Shown: in pieces, positions 19,355 through 42,716 of the stretch | Layout of the letters: every line of letters begins with the position of its first letter | Position numbering within the stretch: the first letter of the stretch is position 1 | Origin: Pseudoxanthomonas suwonensis 11-1 | GTDB lineage: Bacteria; Pseudomonadota; Gammaproteobacteria; Xanthomonadales; Xanthomonadaceae | Direction of reading: 5' to 3' | Assembly (NCBI RefSeq): GCF_000185965.1 | Contig: NC_014924.1 | Location: 1-64,000 of the forward strand | DNA length: 64,000 bases | Notes under the pieces: model-generated | Told to the model about the DNA's origin: nothing | What the model saw: the letters and a program-made list of their open reading frames with translations, nothing else | The model's database searches: none | Made by a program: the position numbers and the translations under genes

Positions 19355-19383
19355 ATTCTAGGCCTTCTGGTAACCGGTGTCAT
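19355..19383 (-). promoter_or_regulatory. kduI promoter overlapped by operator
   Basis: On the - strand a -35 ATGACA (19383-19378) and a -10 TAGAAT (19360-19355) are separated by exactly 17 bases. The -35 is the left half of the operator listed at 19368-19384, so a repressor bound there would block RNA polymerase directly. Confidence 0.6.
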
Positions 19384-19384
19384 T
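19368..19384. promoter_or_regulatory. LacI-type operator, kduI promoter
   Basis: TGGTAACCGGTGTCATT; on the - strand it reads AATGACACCGGTTACCA. Member of the recurrent TGACACCG family found in promoters throughout the pectin locus. Centre ACCGGT is the CG-centred pseudo-palindrome expected for LacI-family operators. Confidence 0.65.
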
Positions 19385-19435
19385 CTGCGCTGCGCCATTC
19401 CGCGCGGGGCGCGGGAAGGCAGGGGGAAAGCCGCC

Positions 19436-20488
19436 TCAGGGCGGCGGCTGGCAGGAGTCGCGGACGATCAGGTGCGGGCGCACGCTGGCAACCGCCAGCG
19501 GGGCGGTATCGGTGCGGATCAGGGTTCCGGCGGCGATCCGGCCGGTGTCGCGGGTATGCCGGCGGACCGAGGTCAGCGACGGCCACAGGCGCGAGGCCAG
19601 CGGGCTGTCGTCGTAGCCGACCACCGACAGGTCGCGCGGGATGCTGATGCCCGCGCGCAGTGCGACCTTGTACACGCCGGCCGCCATCTCGTCGTTGCCG
19701 CAGAAGATCGCGGTCGGGCGCTGCCTGGCCGCTAACAGCTTCTCGGCCGCGGCCACGCCGGACTCGAAGGTGTAGCTGGCCTCGATGATGCGCGCCTTCG
19801 GCACCTCCACGCCGCGCTGGGCCAGGGTGTCGAGGAAGCCGTTGGTGCGTTCGATGGCCGAGCGGTAGGTCAGCGGGCCGGTGATCAGGGCGATGTCGCG
19901 GTGGCCGAGGGTCAGCAGGTAGTCGGCCGCCTCGACCGCACCCTCGCGGTCGTGGGTGACGATCATGCGGCCGTCGTTGTCCTCGAAGCCCACCGGCACG
20001 ATGCGGCTGTAGCGGCAGCCCAGTTCGGCCAGCATGTCCGCGAGCTTCTGGTCCTCCGAGGCGCGCGGCACCAGCATCACCCCGTGCAGCTTCTGCTGCT
20101 GGACGAAGCGGCGCACCCCGTCGATGTAATTCGGCGTGCGGCTGTCGCAGGGGTGCACCACCAGCTCGAAGCCCGAATCGCGCAGCGCGTCCAGCGCGCC
20201 GTACTGCATGTCGACGATGTACTGCGCGGTCGGGTTGTCGTAGACCATGCCGATCAGGAACGAGCGCCGGAACGCCAGCCCGCGGGCCAGCGGGTCGGGC
20301 GTGTAGCCGACTTCCCGCATCAGCGCCTCGACCTTCTCGCGGGTGTCCTTGCGGACCAGGGGCGAGTTGTTGATGATCCGCGAAACGGTCTTCTTCGACA
20401 CCCCCGCCAGGCGGGCGATGTCGTTGATGGTGGCTGCCTTGCCGGAGGGAATCCGGGAGGCCGTATCTGGGCTCTTGCGCGCGGGCAT
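19436..20488 (-). CDS. LacI family transcriptional regulator of the pectin locus
   Basis: A 350-residue LacI/GalR repressor: N-terminal HTH INDIARLAGVSKKTVSRI followed by the hinge VGYTPDPLARGLAF, then a periplasmic-binding-protein-like sensor domain to the C-terminus. Start is ATG 20488 (MPARKSP) or a GTG four codons upstream at 20500; neither has a strong ribosome-binding site. It lies between the TRAP genes and kduI, on the same strand. By position it is the likely reader of the TGACACCG operators, repressing until a uronate catabolite such as KDG binds (inference, analogous to but not homologous with the IclR-type KdgR of enterobacteria). Confidence 0.9.
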   Translation of the reverse strand: MPARKSPDTASRIPSGKAATINDIARLAGVSKKTVSRIINNSPLVRKDTREKVEALMREVGYTPDPLARGLAFRRSFLIGMVYDNPTAQYIVDMQYGALDALRDSGFELVVHPCDSRTPNYIDGVRRFVQQQKLHGVMLVPRASEDQKLADMLAELGCRYSRIVPVGFEDNDGRMIVTHDREGAVEAADYLLTLGHRDIALITGPLTYRSAIERTNGFLDTLAQRGVEVPKARIIEASYTFESGVAAAEKLLAARQRPTAIFCGNDEMAAGVYKVALRAGISIPRDLSVVGYDDSPLASRLWPSLTSVRRHTRDTGRIAAGTLIRTDTAPLAVASVRPHLIVRDSCQPPP

Positions 20489-20603
20489 GTTCGGCTTCAC
20501 GGGAATATCGGTTGGATTCTAGCCGGAGCCGCGGCCCGGCGAGGGGCGGGGCACGCCAGGCGGCCCGCGGCGGCCGGGCTTGCCGCCGTCCCGGGCGCCC
20601 GGA

Positions 20604-21887
20604 TCAGCCCCGCAGCAGGGCCGGCAGCCACAGCGACAGCTGCGGGAAGAACGCCACCACCAGCAGCACGCCCAGCCCGGCCAGCCAGAACGGCCAGATC
20701 GAGCGCATGGCCTGGCCGACGCTGATCTTGCCGATGGCCGTGCCGATGAACAGGACCGAGCCCACCGGCGGGGTGACCAGGCCCAGGCCGCCGGTCAGCA
20801 CCAGGACCAGGCCGAAGTGGATCGGGTCGATCCCGTAGGCGCGCGCCACCGGCAGGAAGATCGGGGTGCAGATCAGGATCATCGGCGCCAGGTCCATGAA
20901 GGTGCCCAGCAGCAGCAGCATGACCACGATCATCAGCAGCACCGCGTACTTGCTGTGCGCGATCGACTGCAGGAACTCCACCGCCGCCGCCGGTACCTGC
21001 AGGTAGGCCAGCAGCCAGCCGAACACGGCCGCGGTGGCGATCACGAACAGGATCACGCCGGTGCTGCGCGCCGCGTGCACCACGGTCTCGAGGAACTCCT
21101 TCAGCCGCAGCTGGCGGTACAGGACGATGGTCACCAGCAGGGCGTAGACCACGGCGATGGCCGCCGACTCGACCGCGGTGAAGATGCCGGCGCGGATGCC
21201 GACGAAGATCAGGGTCACCAGGCCCAGGCCCGGCAGCGCCGCGACCAGCCGCAGCAACACCGCGCGCCAGCCCGGGAACAGCTCCACGCCGTAGCCGCGG
21301 CGGCGCGCGACCAGGTAGCCGGTGGTCATCAGCGTGGCGGTCATCATCAGCGCCGGGACGATGCCCGCGGCGAACAGGTCGGCGATCGACAGGCCGCCGG
21401 CGGCCGCGGCCGAGAACAGGATCAGGTTGTGCGAGGGCGGCACCAGCAGCGCGACCAGCGCCGCGGTGATGCTGACGTTGACCGCGAAGTCCCGGTCGTA
21501 GCCGCGCTTGACCATCTGCGGGATCATCGTGCCGCCGACCGCGGACACGTCGGCGATGGCCGAGCCGGACACGCCGCCGAAGAACAGCGAGGACAGGATC
21601 GAGACCTGGCCCAGGCCACCACGCATGCGTCCCACCAGGGAGGCGGCCAGCGCGATCAGGCGTTCGGAAATGCCGCCGCGCATCATGATCTCGCCGGCGA
21701 AGATGAACAGCGGGATCGCGATCAGCGAGGCCGAGCCGGTGCCGGCCGACACCTGCTGGACCAGCACCACCGAGGGCAGGTCCAGGTACAGCAGGGTCGC
21801 CAGCGCCGCCGCGGCCAGCGCGAACGCCACCGGCACGCCGATCACCAGCAGCACGGCGAACACCAGGAACAGCAGGGCGATGGCCAT
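20604..21887 (-). CDS. TRAP transporter large permease DctM
   Basis: The 427-residue membrane protein with about 12 hydrophobic segments is the ion-coupled translocation subunit of a tripartite transporter. The family core FIFAGEIMMRGGIS, LVPPSHNLILFSAA and VTPPVGSVLFIGTAIG are visible. Together with the small permease and binding protein upstream it should import an acidic sugar; in this context galacturonate or unsaturated uronate (inference). Its ATG shares one base with the DctQ stop (TGATG). Confidence 0.92.
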   Translation of the reverse strand: MAIALLFLVFAVLLVIGVPVAFALAAAALATLLYLDLPSVVLVQQVSAGTGSASLIAIPLFIFAGEIMMRGGISERLIALAASLVGRMRGGLGQVSILSSLFFGGVSGSAIADVSAVGGTMIPQMVKRGYDRDFAVNVSITAALVALLVPPSHNLILFSAAAAGGLSIADLFAAGIVPALMMTATLMTTGYLVARRRGYGVELFPGWRAVLLRLVAALPGLGLVTLIFVGIRAGIFTAVESAAIAVVYALLVTIVLYRQLRLKEFLETVVHAARSTGVILFVIATAAVFGWLLAYLQVPAAAVEFLQSIAHSKYAVLLMIVVMLLLLGTFMDLAPMILICTPIFLPVARAYGIDPIHFGLVLVLTGGLGLVTPPVGSVLFIGTAIGKISVGQAMRSIWPFWLAGLGVLLVVAFFPQLSLWLPALLRG

Positions 21888-22411
21888 CAGCGGTCTCCTT
21901 CCATGGCGGCGGCCTGGTGCGGCAGCAATGCCAGCGCCAGCCGGTTGAGCGCGAACAGCACCATCAGCGCGCCGCCGGCGGCCAGCGGGAGGTAGTTGAT
22001 GCTTTGCGGCAGGGCCGCGCCGGCAGCCTTGATGTGCAGGCCGTCCAGCAGCAGCACCGAGGCCCACCACGCCAGCACCGCGCCGATCGTGGCCACCACC
22101 AGCTGCACCACCACGTCGATCGCGGTCCGCATGCCCGGGCGCACGTGGTCGTGCAGCAGGAAGAAGCCGAAGTGGCGGTTGGTGTGCACGCCGGTGGCCG
22201 CGCCCAGGCTCATGGCGGTGGCCAGCAGCAGCAGGGTCACCGGCTCGGTCCAGCTCGGCGAGTCGTTGAGCACGTAGCGGGCGAACACCTGCCAGCCCTG
22301 CACCACCACCAGCCCGAGCAGGGCGGCGGCGGCGATGCCGATGGCGACGGTGGCGATCAGGTCCAGGACGCGCTGGGCGCCGGTGGGCGGGACGGTCACG
22401 GGTTCGGACAT
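21887..22411 (-). CDS. TRAP transporter small permease DctQ
   Basis: A 174-residue membrane protein with four hydrophobic helices (about 21-43, 60-75, 100-120, 138-160) and the family-typical FARYVLNDSPSWTEPV segment. It forms the membrane complex with DctM. It overlaps dctM by a single base and follows dctP by 20 bases, so the three are one transcription and assembly unit. Confidence 0.9.
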   Translation of the reverse strand: MSEPVTVPPTGAQRVLDLIATVAIGIAAAALLGLVVVQGWQVFARYVLNDSPSWTEPVTLLLLATAMSLGAATGVHTNRHFGFFLLHDHVRPGMRTAIDVVVQLVVATIGAVLAWWASVLLLDGLHIKAAGAALPQSINYLPLAAGGALMVLFALNRLALALLPHQAAAMEGDR

Positions 22412-22431
22412 CGCGGGTTCCAGGAAGGGGT

Positions 22432-23448
22432 TCAGGCGAGCGCGCGGATGCGCTGGTGCAGGCCGGCGATGGCCGGGTCGCGCAGGTACTGCTCGCGCAG
22501 CGGGCGCGCGGCGGCGCGGAACGCATCCATGTCGACCTCGTTTGCCTGCACGCCGGCGGCCAGCACGGCCTGGCGCGCGCGCTCCTCGGAGGCGTCCCAG
22601 TGCCGGCGCATGACGTCGACCGAGGCGCGCGCGGTTTCCAGCAGCAGGCGGCGGTCCGGCGGCGACAGCGCCTCGAAGGTCCTGCGCGACACCAGCAGGA
22701 TGTCAGGCGCGTGCGAGTGCCCGGTCTCCGACCAGAAGCGCGCGGCTTCGAAGTGGCGGCTGGAGTGGAAGCTGCGCATGTTGTTCTCGGCGCCGTCGAT
22801 CATGTGCGTCTCCATGCCGGAGAACGTGTCGCCGAGCGACATCGGCGTCGGGTTGGCGCCGAGCAGGCGCACCAGCTGGATGAAGATGTCCGAGGAGGCC
22901 ACGCGCAGCTTGAGGCCGTGCAGGTCCCGTGGCACCACGATCGGGTGCTTGGTGTTGTAGAAGCAGCGGGCGCCGCTGTCGTAGACCGCCAGGCCGACCA
23001 GGTCGCGGCTCTCGAACCCGCGCAGCACTTCGTCGGCCACGCCGTTGTCCAGCGCGTGGCGCATGTGCTGCACCGAGTCGAACACGTACGGCAGGCACAG
23101 GGCGCGGGTCAGCGGGAACGCGTTGTTGAGCGCGCCGGAATACACGCGGGTGATGTCGATGGCGCCGAAGCGCGCCATGTCGATCGCCTCGCTCTCGCGG
23201 CCCAGCTGGCCGGAGTGGTACAGGCGGATGTCGAGGCGGCCACCGGTCCGTTCGCGCAGGGCCTGGCCGAACCAGCGCACCGCTTCCACGGTCGGGTAGT
23301 CGGACACATGCACGTCGGTGGCGGTCAGCACCCGCGCGCCCTCGCCGGCGCCGCTGGCGGCGGCCAGCAGCCGGCCCGGCGCGGCCAGCGGCAGGGCACA
23401 GGCCCAAGCCCCGGCCAGCAGCAGGCGGCGCCGGGTCAGCCCCTTCAT
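22432..23448 (-). CDS. TRAP transporter substrate-binding protein DctP
   Basis: Periplasmic binding protein of 338 residues. The N-terminus MKGLTRRRLLLAG has a twin-arginine-like signal. The body shows the TRAP pattern, including the conserved Arg region LHGLKLRVASS that contacts the substrate carboxylate, and the helix DGAENNMRSFHSSRHFE. The acidic substrate fits a uronate. Its ATG overlaps the stop of the upstream FAH-family gene by 4 bases (ATGA), tying transport to that enzyme. Confidence 0.9.
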   Translation of the reverse strand: MKGLTRRRLLLAGAWACALPLAAPGRLLAAASGAGEGARVLTATDVHVSDYPTVEAVRWFGQALRERTGGRLDIRLYHSGQLGRESEAIDMARFGAIDITRVYSGALNNAFPLTRALCLPYVFDSVQHMRHALDNGVADEVLRGFESRDLVGLAVYDSGARCFYNTKHPIVVPRDLHGLKLRVASSDIFIQLVRLLGANPTPMSLGDTFSGMETHMIDGAENNMRSFHSSRHFEAARFWSETGHSHAPDILLVSRRTFEALSPPDRRLLLETARASVDVMRRHWDASEERARQAVLAAGVQANEVDMDAFRAAARPLREQYLRDPAIAGLHQRIRALA

Positions 23449-24284
23449 GCCGGATCCTCGCCCGCCGAGGCCACGGCGACGCAGCGCAGCGTGGCATGGC
23501 CGTCGAACACCACCGTGCCGGTCTGGCCGACGCCGATGTCGTGGATGCCGGTTGCGTTGCCGGTGGCGATCAGCTCGCCGCGCCGCAGCGGCCGGCCGCG
23601 CCGCGCGGAGCGGGCCAGGGCGAAGGCGAAGGCCGCGCGCAGGCCACCCGGCAGGCGGCTGGCGCCGCCGCTGCCGACGGCCTGCCCGTCAATCGAGGTG
23701 TCGGCCAGCAGGCTGGCTTCGTCCAGCGTCGTCCAGTCCGGGATTTCCGGACCCAGCAGCAGCCCGTTGTTGTTGCCGAAGTCGCACACGACCACGCGCG
23801 GGCCGAGCTCGTTGATCGTGGCCAGCGGGCTGCTGGCGATCTCGATGCCGGCGAACAGGGTAGACGGCAGCGCCGCGGCCTCGTCCGGGGTCCATTCCAG
23901 CTTGTCGGCGGGCGCGTCGGCGTCCAGGCGCAGCACGTACTCGGCCTCGATCGCCGCGAACCCGCCGGCGAACACCGGGACCTGCTCCGTACCACCGGTA
24001 GCAATCCAGAGGTGGCGGGCGAAGATCGGGCCCAGCAGGCGCTCGTCGCCGGAGCCGTCGCGGCGTTCGGGCGCGATGTAGCCGACCTTCCAGCCGACCA
24101 CCCGGTCGGGCCAGCGGGCGATGGCCGCGTCCTGGACCCGGTAGGCGGTCACCAGGTCAGCGGGGATGTCCCCGGGGAATGCCGGCAGCGAGGCGCCGCG
24201 GCTGCGGGCGGTGGTGAAGCGTTCGGCGATCGCCGCCAGTTCCGGTGGCAGTCCGCCGGTTCCATTGCCGTGCTCGGTGCTCAA
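23445..24284 (-). CDS. Fumarylacetoacetate hydrolase / 2-keto-4-pentenoate hydratase family protein
   Basis: Cytoplasmic enzyme of 279 residues in the MhpD/FAH superfamily: metal-binding E-x-E in FAAIEAEYVLRLD (about residue 115), FAGIEIASSPL, and the C-terminal ATGNATGIHDIGVGQTG. Family members hydrate or cleave 2-keto acids; its substrate here is unknown but it opens the TRAP operon of a uronate locus, so a 2-keto-3-deoxy sugar acid is plausible. Start: TTG at 24284, because a clear GGAGG lies 4 bases upstream (24289-24293); an ATG at 24368 would put the operator inside the gene. Confidence 0.78.
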   Translation of the reverse strand: MSTEHGNGTGGLPPELAAIAERFTTARSRGASLPAFPGDIPADLVTAYRVQDAAIARWPDRVVGWKVGYIAPERRDGSGDERLLGPIFARHLWIATGGTEQVPVFAGGFAAIEAEYVLRLDADAPADKLEWTPDEAAALPSTLFAGIEIASSPLATINELGPRVVVCDFGNNNGLLLGPEIPDWTTLDEASLLADTSIDGQAVGSGGASRLPGGLRAAFAFALARSARRGRPLRRGELIATGNATGIHDIGVGQTGTVVFDGHATLRCVAVASAGEDPA

Positions 24285-24351: not shown

Positions 24352-24369
24352 TGGTAAACCGGTGTCATG
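24352..24369. promoter_or_regulatory. LacI-type operator, FAH/TRAP and esterase divergent promoters
   Basis: TGGTAAACCGGTGTCATG, on the - strand CATGACACCGGTTTACCA. It differs from the kduI operator by one inserted A, and lies 67 bases before its - strand gene (24284), the same distance as in kduI (68). It is also 71 bases before the + strand esterase start, so one site may control both. Confidence 0.65.
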
Positions 24370-24440: not shown

Positions 24441-25412
24441 ATGGTTCCACCCTTCCTGGCGCGATTGCTGCTGCCGCTGGCGATCGCCGGCGCGGCCGCT
24501 CCCGCGGCGGCGGCCGGGGCGCCGCCGCACATTCCCCTGTGGCCGGGCACGCCGCCCGGCTCCGAAGGCCTGGCCCTGGAGCAACGCGTGGTGGAGCGCA
24601 GCAGCGATCCGCGGCTGCCGGACCGCTACGTCGACAACATCGGCCAGCCGTTCCTCAGCGTGTACCGGCCTGCCCGCCCCGACGGCCGCGGCCTGCTGGT
24701 GGTGCCGGGCGGCGGCTACCAGCGGGTGGTGGTCGACAAGGAGGGCACGGCCCTGGTCCCGCACTTCGCCGGCGAGGACGGGCTGACCCTGTTCGTCCTG
24801 CACTACCGGCTGCCGGGGGAGGGCCACCGGGAGCCACGCGACGTGCCGCTGGCCGATGCCCAGCGCGCCATCCGCCTGGTGCGCCAGCGCGCCGCCGAGT
24901 GGGGCATCGACCCGGACAGCGTCGGCGTGATGGGCTTTTCCGCCGGGGGCCACGTCGCCGCCAGCCTGGCCACCCGCCATGCAGAGCGCGTGTACCCGGC
25001 GGTGGACGAGGCCGACCGCCAGCCGGCGCGGCCGGCCTACGCGGTCCTGGTGTATCCGGTGATCGACATGGGTGCCCACGCGCACCCGGGGTCGCGCGAG
25101 CGCCTGCTGGGCCTTTCGCCGGACGCGGCGGCGGTGCGTGCGTACTCGCTGCAGAACCGGGTCGACGCTACGACCCCGCCGGTGTTCCTGCTGCACGCGC
25201 AGGATGACGGAACGGTGCCCGTGGAGAACACGCTGCTGCTGGACGCGGCGTTGCGTACCGCCGGCATCGACCACGAAACCCACCTCTACGCGCACGGCGG
25301 CCACGGCTTCGGCGTGCGCCAGGCGCACGGCAGCCTGGCCTTGTGGCCGGCGATGGTGCGCGCCTGGATCGATGTCCAGGCGCCGCCGCGCGATGCCGGC
25401 GCCGGCAGGTGA
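24441..25412 (+). CDS. Alpha/beta hydrolase, probable secreted acetylesterase
   Basis: A 323-residue secreted serine hydrolase. After a signal peptide (about 1-25) the oxyanion region VVPGGGYQRVV, the nucleophile elbow GFSAGGH (about residue 175), the Asp in AQDDGTVP and the His in HGGHGFG are all present. It resembles the acetyl-xylan esterase / BD-FAE type of prolyl-oligopeptidase-like hydrolases. In this locus it probably removes acetyl or other esters from pectic chains (inference). A perfect-looking GGAGGAGA precedes the ATG. The next esterase gene follows after 26 bases. Confidence 0.83.
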   Translation: MVPPFLARLLLPLAIAGAAAPAAAAGAPPHIPLWPGTPPGSEGLALEQRVVERSSDPRLPDRYVDNIGQPFLSVYRPARPDGRGLLVVPGGGYQRVVVDKEGTALVPHFAGEDGLTLFVLHYRLPGEGHREPRDVPLADAQRAIRLVRQRAAEWGIDPDSVGVMGFSAGGHVAASLATRHAERVYPAVDEADRQPARPAYAVLVYPVIDMGAHAHPGSRERLLGLSPDAAAVRAYSLQNRVDATTPPVFLLHAQDDGTVPVENTLLLDAALRTAGIDHETHLYAHGGHGFGVRQAHGSLALWPAMVRAWIDVQAPPRDAGAGR

Positions 25413-25438
25413 ACCCCGATCCCGACAGTGGAGGCCGC

Positions 25439-27085
25439 ATGACCCAGCAACCGCCATCCCGCCCGACCGAGCCACAGGTCGATGCCGGTCGCCGACGCCT
25501 GCTCCGGGCCGGCGCCGCCGCGTCGACGCTGGCGCTTGCAGCCGGCACCTCCCTGCCGGCGTTCGCGGCGCCGCCCGCGCCGGTCGTGGCCACCGTCCAT
25601 GGCCGCGTGCGTGGCCTGCGCGAGCACGGAGTGCAGGTTTTCCGCGGCATCCGCTACGGCGCCGATACCGCGCCGGTGCGGTTCCGCGCACCGTTGCCGC
25701 CCGCGCCCTGGCGCGGCGTACAGGACGCCACCGCGTATGGCGCCCAGGCGCCACAGCGCTCGCGCGAGGGCATGGGCAGCGAGGACTGCCTGTTCCTCAA
25801 TGTCTGGACGCCCGACACCGACCCGCGGGCCAGGCGGCCGGTGCTGTTCTACATCCACGGTGGCGGCTATGACGCCGGCAACGGCAGCGACCCGCTGTAC
25901 GACGGCACGCGCCTGTGCACGCGCGGCGACGTGGTGGTGGTGACCGTGAACCATCGCCTCAACGCTTTCGGCTACCTCTACCTCGGCCTGCTCGCCGCGG
26001 GCTACGGCAGCTCCGGCAACGCCGGGCAGCTGGACCTGGTGCTGGCGCTGCAGTGGGTGCGCGACAACATCGCCCGCTTCGGCGGCGACCCGGGAAACGT
26101 CACCGTGTTCGGCCAGTCCGGTGGCGGCGCCAAGATCGCGACCCTGATGGCCATGCCCGCCGCGCGCGGCCTGTTCCACAAGGCCTGGACCATGAGCGGG
26201 CAGCAGGTCACCGCCGCCGGACCGCGCGCGGCGACCCAGCGTGCGCAACTGTTCCTGCGCACCGTGGGCATCGATCCGGACGCCGGCGACGCCCTGGCCC
26301 GCCTGCAGGCGTTGCCGGCGCAACGCATCGTGGAGGGCACGACCGCGCGCGACTTCTCCCGGGTCGAGGACACGCGCCTCTACTTCGGCCCGGTGATGGA
26401 CGGGGAGGTTCTGCCGCGGCATCCGTTCTGGCCCGACGCGCCGGCGCAGTCGGCCGCGATCCCGATGGTGGTCGGCAATACCCGCGACGAGACCCGCGCC
26501 TTCCTCGGCGGCGATCCGGCGAACTTCGAGCTGGGCTGGGAAGAACTGCCGGCGCGGCTGGAGAAGCAGCAGTACGTGGACATCCGCGCCGACCTGGTGG
26601 TCGCGCATTACCGCGCGCTGTACCCGCACTACACGCCGTCGGAGGTGTTCTTCGCCGCCACCACCGCCGGGCGGTCCTGGCGCGGCGCGGTGGAGGAGCT
26701 GGAAGCGCGCGCGCGCCAGGCGCGTGGCGCGGCGCCGACCTGGGCCTACCAGCTGGACTGGGGTTCTCCGCTGGACGGCGGGAAATTCCGCGCCTTCCAC
26801 ACCCTGGACATCCCGCTGGTGTTCGACAACATCCGCCAGCCCGGCTCGCGCACCGGTGAGGGCGCGGCCGCGCAGCAGGTGGCCGAGGCCATGTCCGGCG
26901 CGCTGCTGGCGCTGGCCCGGCATGGCGATCCCAACCATCCCGGCCTCCCGCACTGGGAGCCCTATACCTTGCCGCGGCGGCAGACCCTGCTGTTCGACGT
27001 GCCGCCATCGCTGGCCGACGATCCCCGCGGCGGCGAACGCGCGTTCTGGCAGCAGGCGCCGTTCGTGCAGCGCGGGACGATGTAG
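25439..27085 (+). CDS. Carboxylesterase type B family protein, Tat-exported
   Basis: A 548-residue carboxylesterase/lipase family member. The N-terminus has a twin-arginine signal (RRRLLRAGAAAS), so it folds before export. The hydrolase shows EDCLFLNVW, the oxyanion HGGGY, nucleophile GQSGGG (about residue 228), the acid in NTRDETRAF, and the His in FHTLDIPLVFDN. The likely substrate is an ester in plant cell wall, such as feruloyl or acetyl pectin. Operon partner of the preceding esterase; it ends 17 bases before the convergent sialidase-fold gene. Confidence 0.85.
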   Translation: MTQQPPSRPTEPQVDAGRRRLLRAGAAASTLALAAGTSLPAFAAPPAPVVATVHGRVRGLREHGVQVFRGIRYGADTAPVRFRAPLPPAPWRGVQDATAYGAQAPQRSREGMGSEDCLFLNVWTPDTDPRARRPVLFYIHGGGYDAGNGSDPLYDGTRLCTRGDVVVVTVNHRLNAFGYLYLGLLAAGYGSSGNAGQLDLVLALQWVRDNIARFGGDPGNVTVFGQSGGGAKIATLMAMPAARGLFHKAWTMSGQQVTAAGPRAATQRAQLFLRTVGIDPDAGDALARLQALPAQRIVEGTTARDFSRVEDTRLYFGPVMDGEVLPRHPFWPDAPAQSAAIPMVVGNTRDETRAFLGGDPANFELGWEELPARLEKQQYVDIRADLVVAHYRALYPHYTPSEVFFAATTAGRSWRGAVEELEARARQARGAAPTWAYQLDWGSPLDGGKFRAFHTLDIPLVFDNIRQPGSRTGEGAAAQQVAEAMSGALLALARHGDPNHPGLPHWEPYTLPRRQTLLFDVPPSLADDPRGGERAFWQQAPFVQRGTM

Positions 27086-29986: not shown

Positions 29987-30002
29987 ATGACACCGATGGT
30001 CA
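29987..30002. promoter_or_regulatory. LacI-type operator, GH43 promoter
   Basis: ATGACACCGATGGTCA; the inverted repeat TGAC-N7-GTCA is perfect. It forms a pair with the site at 30114, 127 bases away, in the divergent GH43/esterase region. Confidence 0.65.
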
Positions 30003-30030: not shown

Positions 30031-30051
30031 GGGGCATCCTGCGTTGCAGCA
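30031..30051 (-). promoter_or_regulatory. Conserved upstream element, GH43 promoter
   Basis: The motif GCATCNTGCGNNGCA (here GCATCCTGCGTTGCA, at 30034-30048) also occurs beside both receptor promoters at a fixed distance from the operator. Read on the - strand its end TGCCCC is 17 bases from the hexamer TACGGT, so it may be a -35-like core or an activator site. Confidence 0.45.
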
Positions 30052-30113: not shown

Positions 30114-30129
30114 ATGACACCGATAGTCA
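30114..30129. promoter_or_regulatory. LacI-type operator, esterase (30176) promoter
   Basis: ATGACACCGATAGTCA; 46 bases before the ATG of the + strand acetylesterase. It overlaps the -10-like CAGAAT (30110-30115). Confidence 0.65.
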
Positions 30130-35078: not shown

Positions 35079-35140
35079 GCGTTGTGCGTTTCCACGATGG
35101 ATCGAAGTATCCCCGTTGCCGGGCCCGGAGGCCGCACGGG

Positions 35141-36190
35141 TCAACGGCCGGGCGCGGGCAGCCCGTGGCGACGACGCCACTGCGGCAGCTCGGATTCCAG
35201 CAGGCGCTGCGGCCATGTGCCATACCAGGCATAACCGGCGCGGCGTTCACGGGACAGCTGCTCGAACGGCACGATGCTGCCGTCGCGTTCCACCACCAGC
35301 GGCTGCTGCCGCTGCAGGTCGTAGAACCGCGCCCACAGGCCGGCCCCCGGCCGTGGCACCAGGCGCGCGTCGCGTCCGTCCGGACCGTCGAAGCGCTCCA
35401 GCGCCAGGCCGTCGATGCGGTGCGCCTGCAGCCAGGCCGCGCCGGCCTCGACCGCGGCGACGATGCGCGCATCCGGCCGTGGCTGGCGCATCAGCAGGCG
35501 CAGCACGCCGACCGACTCGGCCGAGGCCAGCGACGGCAGCTCGTAGCTGCGCGCACGCGCCGGCTGCAGGGTGTCGCGGTCGTACTGCGCGGCCCATATC
35601 GTCGGGCGGCCATCCAGCACGACCTGCAGCCGCAACAGGCAGTCCAGGCCGCGGGTGGCGGCCTGCGCCGCGCGGCGGGCATGGTCCGGGCCCAGCGCAT
35701 CAAGCCCATCGCGGCCTTCGGCCACGTCCTGCAGCAGGCCGACCACGTGCACCATGGCGTCGTCGTTGAGCGTGACCTGGCTGCGGTAGCCGCTGTGGTC
35801 CGGATGGAACTGCGGCCAGCCGCCACCCGGGTACTGCGCGGCGAGCAGGTAATCGACGCCGCGCCGCGCCGCCTCCAGGTAGGCCGGGTTGCCGGTGTCG
35901 CGGTACGCCCGGGCCAGGTAGGCGATCTCGCTGGTGGTGGCGTTGTTGTCGATGGTGGCGTCGTCCACCCGCGCCGGATCGCGCAGCTGGCGCAGCGCCG
36001 CTTCGTCGAGCGGCTGGCGGTAGTCGACCGCGCGCCCGCGGTAATGCTTGGACCAGCCTCCGGAGGCGGTCTGCAGCCGCAGCATGTTCTCCGCGACCGG
36101 ATCGCTGCGCACGGTGGCCGTGGCCGCTCCGGCCGGCAGCGCGGTCGCCAGCCCCAGGGCGAGCGCCGCCACGCGCAGGCAGCGGGCCAT
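35141..36190 (-). CDS. pelA: Pectate lyase, PL10 family
   Basis: Cleaves alpha-1,4-galacturonan by beta-elimination with calcium, giving unsaturated oligomers that feed KduI. The mature part (349 residues from ATG 36190) has an N-terminal signal peptide (MARCLRVAALALGLATALPAGA) and PL10 features: ENMLRLQTASGGWSKHY, the GGWPQFHPDHSGYRSQVTLNDDAMV segment and DGLALERF. An in-frame ATG at 36235 would add 15 residues; I prefer the later start because it gives a normal signal peptide. It lies between the receptor (36311) and the LamG protein. Confidence 0.88.
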   Translation of the reverse strand: MARCLRVAALALGLATALPAGAATATVRSDPVAENMLRLQTASGGWSKHYRGRAVDYRQPLDEAALRQLRDPARVDDATIDNNATTSEIAYLARAYRDTGNPAYLEAARRGVDYLLAAQYPGGGWPQFHPDHSGYRSQVTLNDDAMVHVVGLLQDVAEGRDGLDALGPDHARRAAQAATRGLDCLLRLQVVLDGRPTIWAAQYDRDTLQPARARSYELPSLASAESVGVLRLLMRQPRPDARIVAAVEAGAAWLQAHRIDGLALERFDGPDGRDARLVPRPGAGLWARFYDLQRQQPLVVERDGSIVPFEQLSRERRAGYAWYGTWPQRLLESELPQWRRRHGLPAPGR

Positions 36191-36310
36191 CCGTCGCCGA
36201 AAGCCGGCCGGCGCCCGGTCGCCATGCGGAACCATGGCGGCCGGGCGCGGCCGGAAGTTCCGGTCGCACGCGTTCAGTCGGGAGGGGCAGGGCGACCGGA
36301 GTGGCACGGC

Positions 36311-39300
36311 TCAAAACCTGTAGCGCAGGCCGACGTAGTACTGGCGGCCGTTGACGGTGTAGCGGTCCGGCAGCTCGAGCGAGGAGTCGACGTAGCGGCT
36401 GTCGGGGGTATCGAGCAGGTTGATCGCCTCGAAGGTCGCGGTCAGGCGCGGGTTGATGCGGTAGGACATGTTGAAGTCCACGTTCTCCACCGAGTGCTTG
36501 CCGGTGACGTCGGCGGTGGCCAGCTGGTTGCCGTCCAGGTCCCACACGTTCTCGCGGCTGAGGATCTCGCTGATGTAGCCGTCGCGGTAGCTGGTTGAAA
36601 CGCGCGCGCTGAAGCGGCCGTCGTCGTAGTACAGGGTGGCGTTGTACGAATTCGGCGACAGGTTGAGCAGGTCGTTCTCGGTGACCGTGGTGACCACGGT
36701 GGCGTTGCCGTTGGACGAGGTGCTGAACCAGTACTTGATGCTGGACTCCACGTGGGTGTAGTTCAGCTGCACGCCGAACTTGCTCCAGATGCCGGGCAGG
36801 AAGGTGAAGGGCTGCTGGTAGGTCAGCTCGTAGCCCTTCAGCGGCCCGCCCGGGGTGTTGTAGTAGCTCTGCACGTTGAACAGCGTGTCCGGGCCGAAAC
36901 CGGCCGGCAGCAGGTCCAGCGAGTAGCCCATGCCGCCCCAGGTGGAGATCAGGCGGGTGCGCTGGATGTAGCTGTCGATGTCCTTGTAGAACAGCGCGCC
37001 GGACAGCAGCGCGCCCTCGGCGAAGTACCACTCCAGGCCGAGGTCGTAGTTGGTGGAGCGGTACGGGTCCAGCTTCGGGTTGCCGAGGTTGATCGAGAAC
37101 ACCCGGCCGTCATCGAAGTACTGGGTCGGGCCGCCGCTGACGCTGGGCGATAGGTAGGTCAGCGTCGGGCGGGCCATGGTCTTGGCCGCGCCGAAGCGCA
37201 GGACCAGCTCGTCGGTGAGGTCCCAGGCGACGTTCAGCGAGGGCAGCACGTCCTGGTAGCTGTGGTTCACGACGCTGCGCACCAGGTAGCGCTCGCCCGG
37301 CGCCGAGGTGGCGTTGGCCACGCCGAAGAAGGCCTCGCAGTTGGACGCGTTGAGCGCCGGGTCCGACGCCGCGCACGGCGCCCAGCCGGAGGCGGTGATC
37401 TTCGTTTCCACCAGGCGCGCGCCGATGTTGCCGCGCAGCGGGCGGTCCAGCAGGTCGGTATTGAAATCCAGCTGCAGGTAGCCGGCCATGCTGCGCTCGT
37501 TGACCTCGAAGTTGTTGTTCGAGGAGCCGAAGTGGCCGACCCCCGCCAGGCGGTAATCGCCGCCCTGCAGGCCGTTGTCGCAGTTGCAGTAGATGTCCAG
37601 CAGCTCGGCGACCTTGCCGAAGTCCGGCGTCAGCCAGCTCGAAGGCGCGCCGGACAGGTTGCGGCCGAAGCCGTCCAGGGTGGTGCTGAGGTCGCCGACG
37701 CCCACCCCGTCAGGCAGGGCCTGGGCCAGGCGGCCGTAGCTGATGTGCCGGTATTCCTCCGAGCGCATGTCGTAGTCCTTGTACGCCAGGCCGGCGCGCA
37801 GGGAGAACGTCGGGTTGAGGATGAACTGCAGGTCGACCTTGGCGGTGTCGAACGTGTTCTCGACTGACTGCGGGTTGAGGCGGACCTCGCTGATGTTGGC
37901 CCCGCGCGCGGTCCCGTTGCTGTTGACCGGTACCACACCGTAGCCGCGCCAGGACCAGGCCGCCGGATCGTTGAGCGCGAACGGGAAGCCCATGCGCGGC
38001 ATGTCCGGGTTGCCGCGCAGGTCCAGGACGAAGCCGTCGAGGTTGGAATTGTCGAAGCTGACCAGCGAGAACACCGGACGCTCGTAGTCGGAGCTGGAGT
38101 GGCCCAGCTGCGCGTCCAGCCGCACCGCATCGTTGAAGTGGTGCTCCAGCGACAGGCTGTACTGCTGGAACCTGGTCGTCTCCTCGATGCTGGTGGCCTC
38201 GGTGCGGAAGTCGACGTTGTCGAACACGCCATAGGTCAGGCGGTTGCGGTCGTCGACCTCGGCCTCGCGCACCACGATCTGGGTCTTGCCGCCGAGGTTG
38301 GCGGCGCGGTGCAGGTTGGCGCCGAGCGAGTCCTCGCGCTGGTCCTTGGACAGTTCCGAGTACATGGCGTCGAAGCTGACGATGGTGTCGTCGCTGGCGC
38401 GCCACTGCAGGGCGCCGGTCAGGCCCAGCCGCTCGATCTCGCTGGCGGTGCGGATATAGCGCGGGTAACGCGGGATCCAGGCGTTGGTCGCGGTCTCGTA
38501 GGCGGCGATGTTCTCCGGGGTGGCCGCCGGGCGCGGCAGCCCGGTGCCGCAGTTCTCCGCGTCGATGCCGTAGCTGCCCCAGCCGTTGTTGCGGTCCTGG
38601 TTGGCCTGCGAGCCGGTGCCGGCCGGGGTCTCGTTGGGCAGCGGGTTGCGCGGGGTCTGCGGGTCGTAGCCGACCGGCGAGCAGAAGCCGTAGGTACCGT
38701 TGTTGTTGGCGTTGGACTGGTTGGAGTTGCGGTGGTTGCCGTGTTCCCAGCGCACCGGGTTGTAGCCTTCCTCGTACACGTTGCGGCGGCTGTAGGAGGC
38801 CGACAGCAGGGCGCCGAAGCGGCCGTCGTTCCAGGTGTTGGACACCAGGCCGGAGACGCGCGGGTCGACCTCGCGCGCCAGCTCGCCGTAACCGGCCTGG
38901 GCGCTGGCCGAGGCGCGGAAGCCGTCGAAGTCGAACGGGCGCGAACCGCGCAGGTCCACGGTCGAGCCCAGCGAACCCTCGTCCATCTGCGCCGACTGGG
39001 TCTTGTTGACCTTGACCTGGCTGAAGAGCTCGGAGGCGAAGGTGTTGAAGTCGAAGCCGCGGCTGCGGTTCACGCCGCCGGTGCCGGTGCCGGCGGTGGC
39101 CAGCGCCTCCAGGCCGTTGAGGCGGACCCGGGTGAAGTCCGAACCCAGGCCGCGGATGGAGATGCGCTGGCCCTCGCCGCCTTCGCGGTCGATCGACACG
39201 CCGGCGATGCGCTGCATCGATTCGGCCAGGTTCTGGTCGGGGAACTTGCCGATGTCCTCGGCGTAGATCGCGTCGACCTGCTCGGTCGAGTAGCGCTTCT

Positions 39301-39469
39301 CGTCCAGCGACTTCTGCAGGCTCTGGCGATAGCCGGTGACGGTGACCGCGTCGAGCTCGGTCGGATCGGGCGAAGCCTGCTGTGCGGCGAGCGGCGCGGA
39401 CAGGGCAAGGCCGATGGCCGCGGCAAGCATGGTAACCGGTGTCTTTCCGAAACGGACGTACGGCGACAT
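36311..39469 (-). CDS. TonB-dependent receptor, probable pectic oligosaccharide importer
   Basis: A 1052-residue outer-membrane beta-barrel receptor. Signal peptide about 1-29, TonB box region TELDAVTVTGYRQSLQKSL, a plug domain with RISIRGLGSDFTRVRLNGL, and the barrel ending in the C-terminal aromatic motif YYVGLRYRF. It should import oligogalacturonides using TonB-ExbBD energy; the substrate is inferred from the operon (PL10, LamG protein). The first 13 codons hold a copy of the operator (39431-39444). A GGGAGGG site precedes the ATG at 39469; the frame would extend further only through unrelated sequence. Confidence 0.88.
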   Translation of the reverse strand: MSPYVRFGKTPVTMLAAAIGLALSAPLAAQQASPDPTELDAVTVTGYRQSLQKSLDEKRYSTEQVDAIYAEDIGKFPDQNLAESMQRIAGVSIDREGGEGQRISIRGLGSDFTRVRLNGLEALATAGTGTGGVNRSRGFDFNTFASELFSQVKVNKTQSAQMDEGSLGSTVDLRGSRPFDFDGFRASASAQAGYGELAREVDPRVSGLVSNTWNDGRFGALLSASYSRRNVYEEGYNPVRWEHGNHRNSNQSNANNNGTYGFCSPVGYDPQTPRNPLPNETPAGTGSQANQDRNNGWGSYGIDAENCGTGLPRPAATPENIAAYETATNAWIPRYPRYIRTASEIERLGLTGALQWRASDDTIVSFDAMYSELSKDQREDSLGANLHRAANLGGKTQIVVREAEVDDRNRLTYGVFDNVDFRTEATSIEETTRFQQYSLSLEHHFNDAVRLDAQLGHSSSDYERPVFSLVSFDNSNLDGFVLDLRGNPDMPRMGFPFALNDPAAWSWRGYGVVPVNSNGTARGANISEVRLNPQSVENTFDTAKVDLQFILNPTFSLRAGLAYKDYDMRSEEYRHISYGRLAQALPDGVGVGDLSTTLDGFGRNLSGAPSSWLTPDFGKVAELLDIYCNCDNGLQGGDYRLAGVGHFGSSNNNFEVNERSMAGYLQLDFNTDLLDRPLRGNIGARLVETKITASGWAPCAASDPALNASNCEAFFGVANATSAPGERYLVRSVVNHSYQDVLPSLNVAWDLTDELVLRFGAAKTMARPTLTYLSPSVSGGPTQYFDDGRVFSINLGNPKLDPYRSTNYDLGLEWYFAEGALLSGALFYKDIDSYIQRTRLISTWGGMGYSLDLLPAGFGPDTLFNVQSYYNTPGGPLKGYELTYQQPFTFLPGIWSKFGVQLNYTHVESSIKYWFSTSSNGNATVVTTVTENDLLNLSPNSYNATLYYDDGRFSARVSTSYRDGYISEILSRENVWDLDGNQLATADVTGKHSVENVDFNMSYRINPRLTATFEAINLLDTPDSRYVDSSLELPDRYTVNGRQYYVGLRYRF
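39431..39444. promoter_or_regulatory. Intragenic operator-like site in TonB receptor 1
   Basis: GGTAACCGGTGTCT, matching the kduI operator core GACACCGGTTACC on the - strand. It encodes KTPVT, with the unusual codons ACA and GTT, in the signal peptide. It sits 26-39 bases inside the gene. Confidence 0.45.
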
Positions 39470-39544: not shown

Positions 39545-39560
39545 ATGACACCGATAGTCA
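39545..39560. promoter_or_regulatory. LacI-type operator, TonB receptor 1 promoter
   Basis: ATGACACCGATAGTCA, identical to the site at 30114; 75 bases before the receptor start. The -10-like TACCTT and the GCATCNTGCG element lie next to it on the - strand. Confidence 0.65.
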
Positions 39561-39590: not shown

Positions 39591-39605
39591 GCATCGTGCG
39601 CCGCA
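39591..39605 (-). promoter_or_regulatory. Conserved upstream element, TonB receptor 1
   Basis: GCATCGTGCGCCGCA, the third copy of the motif seen at 30034 and 42624, 30-32 bases beyond the operator. Confidence 0.45.
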
Positions 39606-39709: not shown

Positions 39710-39747
39710 ACGCAAAAGAAAACCGGGGCGGCAGGGCCGCCCCGGTT
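39710..39747 (-). terminator. Terminator of TonB receptor 2
   Basis: A perfect 12-bp stem AACCGGGGCGGC / GCCGCCCCGGTT (39721-39732 and 39736-39747) with, on the - strand, a following TTTCTTTTG run (39720-39710). It ends the receptor 2 transcript before the receptor 1 promoter region. Confidence 0.85.
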
Positions 39748-39768
39748 CCAGGGTCCAGGCGTGGATGC

Positions 39769-42513
39769 TCAGAACTTGTAGCGGATGCCCATCAGGTACT
39801 GGCGTCCGGTCAGGCTGTAATCCAGCGGCAGCTGCGAGGCGGCGCCGACCCAGGACTGCAGCGACGGCTCGTTGGTGAGGTTGATGCCTTCCAGGCTCAG
39901 CTCGATCTGCTCGCTGACCTTGTAGCGCAGCGAGGCGTCGACGTAGGTGATGCCGTTCTGGCCATGCACGTCGCTGGTGAAGCCCTGCTCGGTGCCCGGG
40001 ACCTGGATCAGGTAGTTGTCGCGGTTGGTCGCCGAGACGCGGCCGGAGAAGGTCTGGCCTTCGTAGAACAGGGTGGCGTTCCACGAGTGCCGCGACAGGC
40101 CGGTCAGGTCGGTGCGCAGCGAAGCGGCGCCGGAGCTGGTCAGGTACTGGATCTTCGAATCGACGAAGGTGTAGTTCAGCTGCACGCCCAGGTTGGCCCA
40201 GTTGCCCGGCAGGAAGGTGAACGGCTGGATGAAGTTCGCCTCCACGCCCTTGAGCGGGCCGCCCGGGGTGTTGACCGGCACCGAGAACACGAAGTCGTCG
40301 TTCGCGCTGACGCCGAAGCCCTCGGCGACGCTGGCCGGCAGGCCGCTGGTGTAGAACGGCCGCACCTCGCGGGTGGTCTGCACGAAGCTCTCGATGTCCT
40401 TGTAGAACAGCCCCAGGCTCAGCATCGCGCTGTCCTGGAAGTACCACTCGGCCGACAGGTCGTAGGTCTCGGCGCGGATCGGGTCGAGGCCCGGGTTGCC
40501 GCCGGTGACGTTGCGCGAGCCGCCGCTGACGCTGACGGTCACGCCCGGGGTCAGGCTGCCCAGTCCCGGGCGGCTCATGACCTTGGCCGCGCCGAAGCGG
40601 ACCAGCAGGTCGGGCGCGACCTCGGCGACCAGGTTCAGCGACGGCAGGGTGTCGCTGTACTCGCGCGAGACGGTCAACGGGGTGGGCGTGCCGGCGATGG
40701 TGGCGATGCCGGTCGAGGCCTGCTTGGTCTTGACGTAGCGCACGCCGAAGTTGCCCGAGAACGGGATGTTGCCCAGGTCGGTGGAGAACTCGCCCATCAG
40801 GTAGGCGCCGCGGTCCTTCTCCTCGACGCTGCGGTTGCTGGCCGCGTACGGCGACAGGGCGAAGGTGCCGTCGCCGCTGAAGATGTCGAAGTGGTCGGCG
40901 ATGGCGTCGAAGTCCGGCACCACCCACTGGCCCGGCGAACCGGACATGCCGCTCAGGCGCGCCATCTGCACCATGTCCACCGGCACGATCCGGGTGCCGT
41001 CCGAGAACGCCGGCACGATGGTCTCGGTGGCGGTGCGGCGCCACTCCATCGACTCGAAGCCGTAGTCCTTGGCCAGCACGCCGCCCTTGAGGCGGAAGCC
41101 GGGGCTGATGCTCCAGTTGAAGTCGAGCTGGCCGACGTCGAAGTCGTTCTCGACCTTGTTGGCGCGCATGCGGATGGTGGACAGGGTCCAGCCTTCCGGA
41201 TCGGTCGGGTCGATGCCGTAGTCGATTACCGGCGCCCACTTGTCGCCGCGGTAGTCGTAGCTGTAGCCGTCGACGTTGAGCTTGTCCATCATGATCGTCG
41301 CCTGCACGGGATTGTCGTGCCGGGACGAGGAGGTGCCGAGCTTGCCGGTCAGCTTGAAGCTGTCGCTGAACTCGTGCTCGCCGGACAGGCTGACCTGCTT
41401 GAAGACCGTATCCCACTCGTCGTAGCGGTGCTCGGCGCGCACGTCGACGTCGTCGAAGCGGCCGTACAGCAGCGCACCCGTGGCCGGGTCGATGTAGCCG
41501 TCGCGGACGATGGTCTCGGGCTTGCCGCCCTGCGAGGCCGAGCGGCTGAAGGAGATCGCCTCGATGTAGTGCTCGCGGCGGGTCGCGTCGATCTTCGAGT
41601 ACAGGCCGTCCAGCGAGAACTGGGTGTTGTCGCCGGGCTTGAACTGCAGCGAGGCGGTCACGCCGGTGCGGTCCTGGTCGTGCTCCATCCAGGTGTAGCG
41701 CGGGAAGCGCGGGTGGAACACGTCGGCGGACATGGCATCGGTGAAGGTCGAGGCCGGATTGAAGCCGCCGTTGCTGGTGCCGTTGGCCCAGCGGCCGGTG
41801 CCGGTGCCCTGCTCCAGCGCCTTGCGCTTGGTGTGGGCCACCGACAGCAGGGCGCCGAACCTGCCGTCGGCCCAGGTGTTGGCGATCAGGCCGGCCACGC
41901 GCGGGGTGGCGTCGCCGGACATGTCGTTGTAGGAGGCCTGCGCGCTGGCGGCGACGGTGAAGCCGCTGTAGTCGAACGGACGCGCGGTGACCAGGTCGAC
42001 CGTGGCGCCCAGCGAGCCCTCCTCGACGTCGGCCTGCGCGGTCTTGCGCACGATCATCTGCGAGAACAGGTCCGAGGCGAAGACGTTGAAGTCGAAGCCG
42101 CGGGTGCGGTTGGTGCCGCCGTTCTGGTCGGTGGAGCCGACCGTGGTCAGCGCCTCCATGCCGTTGATGCGCACGCGGGTGAAGTCCGGGCCCAGGCCGC
42201 GGACGGAGATGTTGCGGCCCTCGCCGGCGTCACGGGTGATGACCACGCCGGGAATGCGCTGCAGCGATTCGGCCAGGTTGAGGTCGGGGAACTTGCCCAC
42301 GTCCTCGGCGACGATGGCGTCGACCACGCCGGCCTCGCCACGCTTGATGTCGATGGCGCGCTCGAGGCTGGCGCGATAGCCGGTCACCACGATGGTGTCC
42401 AGTTCCACCGCCTGCCCGGTCTCTTGCGCGAACACAGGTGCATGCAGCGCGAGGCCGATGGATGCGGCCAGCAAGGTAACCGGTGTCTTACGGCGGTTGC
42501 TACGAGTGTGCAT
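39769..42513 (-). CDS. TonB-dependent receptor 2 of the pectin locus
   Basis: A 914-residue outer-membrane receptor, paralogous to the 1052-residue one: the N-termini share KTPVT-LAA-IGLAL, and both have the long TonB-box region (VELDTIVVTGYRASLERAI), the plug motif NISVRGLGPDFTRVRINGM and the C-terminal RQYLMGIRYKF. Signal peptide cleaves near AQETG. It is a single-gene transcript with its own operator (42576) and terminator (39710). Import of pectin-derived oligosaccharides is inferred from regulation and neighbours, probably a different size or linkage than receptor 1. Confidence 0.88.
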   Translation of the reverse strand: MHTRSNRRKTPVTLLAASIGLALHAPVFAQETGQAVELDTIVVTGYRASLERAIDIKRGEAGVVDAIVAEDVGKFPDLNLAESLQRIPGVVITRDAGEGRNISVRGLGPDFTRVRINGMEALTTVGSTDQNGGTNRTRGFDFNVFASDLFSQMIVRKTAQADVEEGSLGATVDLVTARPFDYSGFTVAASAQASYNDMSGDATPRVAGLIANTWADGRFGALLSVAHTKRKALEQGTGTGRWANGTSNGGFNPASTFTDAMSADVFHPRFPRYTWMEHDQDRTGVTASLQFKPGDNTQFSLDGLYSKIDATRREHYIEAISFSRSASQGGKPETIVRDGYIDPATGALLYGRFDDVDVRAEHRYDEWDTVFKQVSLSGEHEFSDSFKLTGKLGTSSSRHDNPVQATIMMDKLNVDGYSYDYRGDKWAPVIDYGIDPTDPEGWTLSTIRMRANKVENDFDVGQLDFNWSISPGFRLKGGVLAKDYGFESMEWRRTATETIVPAFSDGTRIVPVDMVQMARLSGMSGSPGQWVVPDFDAIADHFDIFSGDGTFALSPYAASNRSVEEKDRGAYLMGEFSTDLGNIPFSGNFGVRYVKTKQASTGIATIAGTPTPLTVSREYSDTLPSLNLVAEVAPDLLVRFGAAKVMSRPGLGSLTPGVTVSVSGGSRNVTGGNPGLDPIRAETYDLSAEWYFQDSAMLSLGLFYKDIESFVQTTREVRPFYTSGLPASVAEGFGVSANDDFVFSVPVNTPGGPLKGVEANFIQPFTFLPGNWANLGVQLNYTFVDSKIQYLTSSGAASLRTDLTGLSRHSWNATLFYEGQTFSGRVSATNRDNYLIQVPGTEQGFTSDVHGQNGITYVDASLRYKVSEQIELSLEGINLTNEPSLQSWVGAASQLPLDYSLTGRQYLMGIRYKF
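42475..42488. promoter_or_regulatory. Intragenic operator-like site in TonB receptor 2
   Basis: GGTAACCGGTGTCT, identical to the site at 39431, again encoding KTPVT with codons ACA and GTT. Confidence 0.45.
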
Positions 42514-42575
42514 ATCCCCTCCCAGGGCTGACTATCTCGGAATGCGTTGTGCGTTGGACTAAGGGGCCAAGCGGC

Positions 42576-42591
42576 ATGACACCGCTGGTCA
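42576..42591. promoter_or_regulatory. LacI-type operator, TonB receptor 2 promoter
   Basis: ATGACACCGCTGGTCA; TGAC-N7-GTCA is a perfect inverted repeat. Paired with the site at 42701 (125 bases away). Confidence 0.65.
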
Positions 42592-42620
42592 AACGGGACG
42601 CTAACACCGCGTCCGGGCAT

Positions 42621-42641
42621 GGGGCATCTTGCGCCGCAGCA
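42621..42641 (-). promoter_or_regulatory. Conserved upstream element, TonB receptor 2
   Basis: Contains GCATCTTGCGCCGCA at 42624-42638, matching the elements at 30034 and 39591. On the - strand the adjoining TGCCCC is 16 bases from the -10-like TTAGCG. Confidence 0.45.
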
Positions 42642-42696
42642 CGATCAACCTTGGTAGCGGTCACATCCGCGGATACGCCGAAACCCGCGCCAGCAT

Positions 42697-42716
42697 TACA
42701 ATGACACCGATAGCCA
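42697..42716 (+). promoter_or_regulatory. kdgK promoter -10 with overlapping operator
   Basis: The -10-like TACAAT (42697-42702) is overlapped by the operator ATGACACCGATAGCCA (42701-42716). It stands about 110 bases before the kdgK ATG. The second half of this operator is one base off the TGAC-N7-GTCA consensus. Confidence 0.55.

Follow-up and report, generated by a model that had tools for sequence, protein, structure and literature searches.

The window analysed here, the first 64,000 nucleotides of contig NC_014924.1 of Pseudoxanthomonas suwonensis 11-1, carries between 16.2 and 43.8 kb a block of genes for pectin use, as judged from profile-based gene content, and the question raised by this locus is whether its transcription units are controlled by one regulator and, if so, through which sites. 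An original prediction joined these units, through seven related sites, into a single regulon of the LacI-type protein encoded in the block. The results described below support this regulon at the sequence level, given that operator and repressor co-occur among genomes and that the recognition helix is unique in the genome; it is highly probable that the LacI protein encoded at 19436-20500 is the local repressor of pectin use, acting through nine operators. One repressor appears to govern the whole block in this organism and the core of the block in its relatives. The original prediction is incomplete, as it overlooked two operators inside genes and a further promoter element that is conserved.

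The seven sites are present where they had been placed, all of them outside annotated genes, and each unit between 16.2 and 43.8 kb has one, with the units guessed from gene order. A search of the single-contig, 3,419,049-base genome with the pattern TGACACCGNTN{3,4}CA returned seven exact matches, which are the seven window sites, and one match for the reversed-pattern control; on this basis a chance origin of the sites was rejected. Because all seven exact matches fall in the pectin block, and are confined to functionally related genes, the objection that such sites occur in the genome at random frequency does not hold. Likewise, TGACACCGNTNGYCA has five exact matches genome-wide, all in the block, and five with one mismatch (the 19368 site and four elsewhere), the control giving six in all at the same tolerance. 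A one-mismatch site, TGACACCGCGAGTCA, is located at 673651-673665 of the genome (L007/L162), approx. 0.6 kb before a plug-domain match of another TonB receptor, and may be due to chance. Within the window, the 8-mer TGACACCG is mildly enriched (seven copies versus 2.59 expected; 4 of 100 shuffles reach seven), and the consensus first proposed, TGACACCGNTNGTCA, is not enriched when up to three mismatches are allowed (17 versus 13.65; 20 of 100 shuffles reach 17).

That consensus holds for part of the sites. The form ATGACACCGNTNGTCA is exact at four of the seven and has one mismatch at a fifth (42702), whereas the sites at 19368 and 24352 end with GGTTACCA and GGTTTACCA, respectively. The count of seven has to be raised to nine, since two intragenic copies of GACACCGGTTACC, at 39430 and 42474 in the signal-peptide codons of the two TonB-receptor genes, add to those already described. 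RACACCGGTTWCCW occurs exactly three times in the genome, in the kduI operator and once inside each of these receptor genes; its ten one-mismatch matches are all elsewhere, and the reversed control has five at up to one mismatch. An equal distance of 67-68 bases between the operator and each of two genes had also been pointed out; in the window this distance is 68-69, but in relatives it varies from 44 to 75 bases before kduI and from 54 to 89 before the transporter operon (with the start extrapolated from the query), and a meaning for a fixed distance was therefore rejected. Phasing of a loop between the two sites in the GH43/GDSL promoter region was rejected too, given that their spacing drifts over approx. 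121-128 bases where both are listed.

The conservation of these sites was followed in 80 loci from named records that encode a protein closely related to the LacI of the window, kept out of 188 encoding a relative; gene starts less than 400 bases from the end of a locus were not testable when operators before genes were counted. An operator was found 5' of kduI in 72 of 72 testable loci, and 5' of the transporter-repressor operon, whose first gene is FAH-like, in 70 of 70. The operon-internal genes used as controls had none (lacI, 0/80; dctP, 0/72), and none was seen before the GDSL-cupin gene (0/67), dctM (0/37), the carboxylesterase gene (0/57) or the BNR_2 gene (0/7). This count leaves out kduD and the BD-FAE gene, and for the LamG, pel, receptor and kdgK genes it comprises zero or one testable locus. 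The 8-mer occurs 206 times in the 80 loci versus 14 times for the reversed word, and the 21-mer of the transporter operon, ATGACACCGGTTTACCATATA, is exact in 66 of them, with variable flanking bases; the aligned sites were picked by pattern, so the conservation of the core in that alignment is partly built in. Xanthomonas loci among the 80 carry the same repressor and operators. A record titled Bacillus subtilis SK7B5 (L024) encodes a LacI 82% identical to that of the window, and is probably mislabelled or contaminated.

The candidate repressor has an N-terminal LacI helix-turn-helix (PF00356, 4.6e-20) and a periplasmic-binding-like sensor domain (PF13377, 6.4e-37), and the solved structures related to it, with E-values of 1e-44 or weaker (cut at 1e-30), are only of the LacI family; it is LacI-type and does not belong to the IclR family, as the IclR-type KdgR does. 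A CG-centred (pseudo)palindromic operator is present, at the sequence level, near its gene and near its proposed targets. In 299 genomes of the order, an orthologue (E<=1e-100) was detected in 74 and the 16-mer ATGACACCGGTTTACC in 44, all of them among the 74; none of the 225 repressor-free genomes has the 16-mer (Fisher 4e-33, ignoring relatedness). Thirty repressor-bearing genomes lack this 16-mer, and 21 of them match ATGACACCGGTNNCC, always in a TTTCC or TTACC form (ATGACACCGGTTTCC or its TTACC equivalent), whereas 4 of 30 hand-picked repressor-free controls match it and none does so in either form. The pattern was chosen after stretches of 13 of the 30 genomes were known; among the 17 unseen genomes, 12 match.

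The genome has eight LacI-family matches at E<=1e-10, and an arrangement of the type TGAC-N7-GTCA could suit further families; it could thus be proposed that a LacI paralogue or a GntR-type protein binds the sites, and that the neighbouring LacI is a bystander. We consider this very improbable. Besides the co-occurrence across 299 genomes, which follows this orthologue, the recognition helix SKKTVSR is kept in all 28 orthologues examined, with identities as low as 51% (the protein of the window, 16 distant orthologues and 11 from the 80 loci), and all seven paralogues of the genome lack it. Furthermore, a CG-centred palindrome accompanies a distant orthologue: genome G016, whose LacI is 52% identical, has a perfect 14-base palindrome, TGACACCGGTGTCA (TTGACACCGGTGTCATT), before an FAH-like gene and approx. 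1 kb before lacI. The operator may originally have had this perfect and even form, its right half having since drifted in sequence and spacing.

Several observations speak against the regulon as proposed. The half-sites are spaced 7+8 and 7+9 in the window and 7+7 in the distant relative, which is unusual for one rigid operator. At GH43-like genes an operator was found in 8 of 57 loci, and at GDSL-like genes in 1 of 46 (orthologues and paralogues pooled); therefore, wide sharing is seen only for the sites of kduI and of the transporter operon, and the predicted core regulon is kduI plus the transporter-repressor operon, with enzyme genes that vary among relatives. Nine of the 30 repressor-bearing genomes mentioned above have neither the 16-mer nor the 15-mer; five belong to genus g2, with a LacI 68-69% identical, and among the four others is G016, which has the palindrome instead. 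Finally, two g2 loci that bear the repressor and have no kdu or transporter genes nearby (L123 and L124) also lack the exact operator. Their LacI is approx. 68% identical overall, with a nearly unchanged DNA-binding domain, and L124 has TGACACCGTTCGTCG, one mismatch off the operator, some kilobases from the lacI gene; perhaps the g2 protein has been re-used.

The position of the operators relative to the promoters differs between two classes of genes. The earlier claim that the kduI site overlaps a -35 hexamer with a 17-base spacer extends to relatives: in 74 of 77 kduI-type promoters a spacer of 17 or 18 bases separates ATGACA from a TAGAAT-like -10, whatever the right half-site. Receptor promoters were compared in 40 loci (10 for receptor 1 and, for receptor 2, 30 of 44 matches; the window genes are included). 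In 33 of 34 distinct promoters a TAnnnT hexamer is located 0-4 bases before the operator, which would therefore cover the presumed start point; the site is placed after the putative -10 and in the orientation opposite to that of the kduI site.

A second element, TGCRNYGCANNATG, is conserved in the receptor and GH43 promoters, where it lies approx. 25 bases ahead of the putative -10, i.e., at about -42, a position at which class II activators bind. The genome contains nine copies of the word TGCRNYGCANNATGC (control, one), three of them in both receptor promoters and in the GH43 promoter, and without its last C it is present 63 times in the 80 loci versus once when reversed, 44 of the 63 copies being near an operator. 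The core TGCRNYGCA was found within 70 bases before the receptor operator in 28 of 34 promoters, as compared with 0.5% of shuffles, and in 26 of these 28 it ends 25-26 bases before TAnnnT. It also adjoins the operator in 26 of 77 kduI-type promoters and, by a rough count, is present in the upstream half of 10 of 28 TonB-receptor loci of the genome, partly inside genes. One of the nine genomic copies precedes a gene for a major facilitator superfamily transporter (genome 3272960; L149/L191).

The regular distance between ATGACA and the -10 in kduI promoters could mean that TGACACC is mainly a promoter element, a -35 hexamer behind TGCRNYGCA, and not an operator; the TTGCACCGCAAAATGACACCGG form of the second element, which at genome position 1541965 (L183) precedes a gene of the TetR family, fits such a role. 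This explanation is hard to sustain for a site that, in receptor promoters, follows the putative -10 in the opposite orientation and that recurs inside coding DNA. Bases outside the hexamer are conserved as well, both in an alignment of pattern-picked sites and in the 21-mer that is exact in 66 of 80 loci. We give a mainly promoter role hardly any credence.

In the mechanism that we propose, the sites themselves are observed, whereas their binding by a dimer, the inducer, the loop, the sign of the regulation and the transcription starts are inferred. A LacI dimer would bind the TGACACCG-based operators at nine places. The operators of kduI and of the transporter operon would lie within the promoter, that of kduI covering the -35 hexamer, and those of the receptor and GH43 genes would sit where transcription presumably begins, a few bases past the putative -10. 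At each receptor gene two bound dimers would probably repress jointly, either through a short DNA loop or as a road-block. The repressor would also control itself, because its gene lies in one of the operons that it is predicted to repress. Once pectin fragments enter the cell, a degradation intermediate would release the repressor; our guess for the inducer is 2-keto-3-deoxygluconate (KDG) or an unsaturated uronate that precedes it in the pathway.

In the window, each receptor gene has, as a DNA site, a further operator within the first structural gene; its centre is 115 bp from that of the start-site operator in receptor 1 and 102 bp from it in receptor 2. In the 40 receptor loci, those of the window included, 34 distinct pairs of start-site and internal operators were found in 33 loci from 15 genera, by the labels of the tool, with spacings of 86-136 bp, many of them close to 94-97 or 123-126. 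Of the 34 internal 15-mers, 33 read AAGACACCGGTTACC and one reads AAGACACCGGTTTCC, and in all 34 the codons ACA and GTT are fixed, which in these receptor genes make up 2.4% of the codons for Thr and 3.2% of those for Val, respectively. Since these codons are rare, selection very probably acts on the internal site at the DNA level. Side by side with these pairs, locus L196 has CCGACACCGGTTACC together with an altered start-site copy, and in L193 start-site and internal operators of the receptor-1 type are followed by a frame unlike a receptor, possibly a decayed receptor gene.

It could be argued that the internal sites are not operators, and that a K-T-P-V-T motif of the signal peptide conserves the DNA through the protein only. 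The amino acids are indeed conserved too, and selection on the protein could be part of the reason. Two receptor-2 loci (L219 and L220) also tell against an internal operator, since two variants are present upstream in them but the internal site is absent. What makes the protein-only explanation unlikely, in addition to the rare codons, which all 34 pairs retain, is that in L121, the exception to the 15-mer, S replaces T in the protein and the DNA becomes GGTTTCC, a form also present before kduI. Moreover, four receptor-1 loci that have no start-site operator (L117-L120) have no internal operator either, L120 retaining the remnant TGACACCGCATC, and the exact 14-mer is restricted to its three copies in the pectin block.

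How the two operators of a pair would cooperate is less clear-cut. When aligned with LacI chains, the repressor matches up to residue 330 (chain residue 307), and because 24 residues remain after the aligned part, versus approx. 53 in LacI, the tetramerisation tail of the lac repressor is missing. This, together with the spread of the spacing over 86-136 bp, suits a road-block to the elongating polymerase, which we regard as a possible but less favoured alternative to a loop. The distances do form two clusters, and the best period tried was 10.3 bp (R=0.52, p ~1e-4, uncorrected and with shared ancestry ignored), although a peak near 10 would arise from two clusters separated by approx. 30 bp alone. 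A dimeric protein is no obstacle to a loop, as GalR loops as dimers with HU (passages of PMC4693257). The fuller proposal, in which the DNA of the signal peptide (the K-T-P-V-T codons) is an operator in at least 15 genera and forms a gal-like loop with the start-site operator approx. 94-126 bp away, with a separate activator at TGCRNYGCANNATG near -42, has in our judgement an even chance of being correct.

The sites and genes of the block are collected in Table 1. The LacI protein is 99% identical to those of Pseudoxanthomonas suwonensis DSM 17175 and Pseudoxanthomonas sp. J31. Outside the block, the window has a cobalamin riboswitch at 62379-62594 (115 bits).

Table 1. Predicted operators, second promoter elements and genes of the pectin-use block, with their positions in the window.
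Feature	Position	Strand	Basis or remark
Operator TGACACCGGTTACCA before kduI, -35 ATGACA inside	19368..19382	-	pattern search
Operator TGACACCGGTTTACCA between FAH-like/dctP/dctM/lacI operon and divergent esterase genes	24352..24367	-	pattern search
Operator TGACACCGATGGTCA before GH43 gene (- strand)	29988..30002	+	pattern search
Operator TGACACCGATAGTCA before GDSL esterase gene	30115..30129	+	pattern search
Intragenic operator AGACACCGGTTACCA, TonB receptor 1 codons 9-13 (K-T-P-V-T)	39430..39444	-	pattern search
Operator TGACACCGATAGTCA of TonB receptor gene 1, directly past putative -10	39546..39560	+	pattern search
Intragenic operator GACACCGGTTACCT, TonB receptor 2 codons 9-13 (K-T-P-V-T)	42474..42487	-	pattern search
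Operator TGACACCGCTGGTCA of TonB receptor gene 2, directly past putative -10	42577..42591	+	pattern search
Operator TGACACCGATAGCCA before KDG-kinase-like gene	42702..42716	+	pattern search
Second element, GH43 promoter	30034..30048	-	pattern search
Second element, receptor 1 promoter	39591..39605	-	pattern search
Second element TGCGGCGCAAGATGC, receptor 2 promoter	42624..42638	-	pattern search
GDSL esterase with cupin domain	16258..17490	-	likely in kduI-kduD operon
kduD (start approximate)	17558..18310	-	TIGR01832 above cut-off
kduI	18451..19299	-	NCBIfam PRK00924 above cut-off
LacI-family repressor gene, 354 amino acids, end of transporter operon	19436..20500	-	Pfam LacI, Peripla_BP_3; helix-turn-helix SKKTVSR
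TRAP transporter DctM large permease	20604..22526	-	NCBIfam dctM above cut-off
TRAP solute-binding protein DctP	22432..23448	-	profile match
FAH/2-keto-4-pentenoate-hydratase-like protein, opens transporter operon	23445..24284	-	start inferred; no Pfam match, NCBIfam weak
BD-FAE-type esterase, divergent to transporter operon	24441..25412	+	similarity
Carboxylesterase	25343..27085	+	similarity
BNR_2 protein, 3' of GH43 gene	27103..28329	-	profile match
GH43 glycosidase	28344..29948	-	profile match
GDSL esterase	30176..31063	+	weak PaeY similarity, under cut-off
Large LamG-domain protein, 3' of pectate lyase	31257..35216	-	profile match
Pectate lyase	35141..36307	-	TIGR02474 above cut-off
TonB-dependent receptor 1	36311..39469	-	profile match
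TonB-dependent receptor 2	39769..42513	-	profile match
PfkB kinase, KDG-kinase-like	42816..43835	+	NCBIfam matches under cut-off

The type of regulon described here is already known, and what is unusual is the operator inside the codons of a signal peptide, where one stretch of DNA is seemingly under both protein and regulatory selection; the repressor itself is a candidate intracellular pectin sensor for Xanthomonadaceae. Among the literature matches listed, judged by title and the start of the abstract and with RegPrecise outside this scope, no LacI-type pectin repressor of this family was noticed, and those for ACACCGGT with LacI were unrelated by title. Searches linking kduI, Xanthomonas and LacI, or RegPrecise with Xanthomonadales, found nothing. 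An outline and term search of the main text of a comparative-genomics paper on LacI regulators gave no word beginning with Xanthomonad- or pectin- (PMC4052901). In the parts of two articles that deal with Xanthomonas pectin loci no regulator is named (PMC1790865, PMC3551730), and the same parts of the first give no operator for XCC0120-0122 of X. campestris. These three genes encode a TonB receptor, a pectin esterase and a pectate lyase, a content like that of the block described here, and polygalacturonate induces XCC0120 (PMC1790865, in part).

As to regulators, LacI-type XylR is named for xylan only in the consulted portion of a 2026 review (PMC13282271). The xylan carbohydrate-utilization (CUT) loci that it controls in Xanthomonas, a related genus, are similar in having a LacI-type repressor of a TonB-receptor carbohydrate locus, for a different sugar (same portion of PMC13282271). 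Pectin and KDG genes are controlled in Dickeya and Bacillus by proteins that share the name KdgR; that of Dickeya is of the IclR family, another family than the repressor proposed here, whereas that of Bacillus is also LacI-type. The operator of XylR differs from the one found in this block. Operator O1 of E. coli lac is, as here, an odd-spaced pseudo-palindrome with CG near its centre; its sequence differs, and the lac repressor is tetrameric. The closest parallel to the receptor genes is the gal operon of E. coli, where, according to passages of PMC4693257, the centres of the 16-bp operators OE and OI are separated by 113 bp, OI is located inside galE (+53.5), and repression is optimal at full turns (103, 113, 123 and 133 bp). 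Both systems would thus have a LacI/GalR-type repressor and a second operator inside the first structural gene, at 113 bp in gal and 115 bp in receptor 1. They differ in that the internal operator of the pectin block, known here as a DNA site only, is embedded in the signal-peptide codons of TonB receptors and belongs to a set of sites spread over many promoters.

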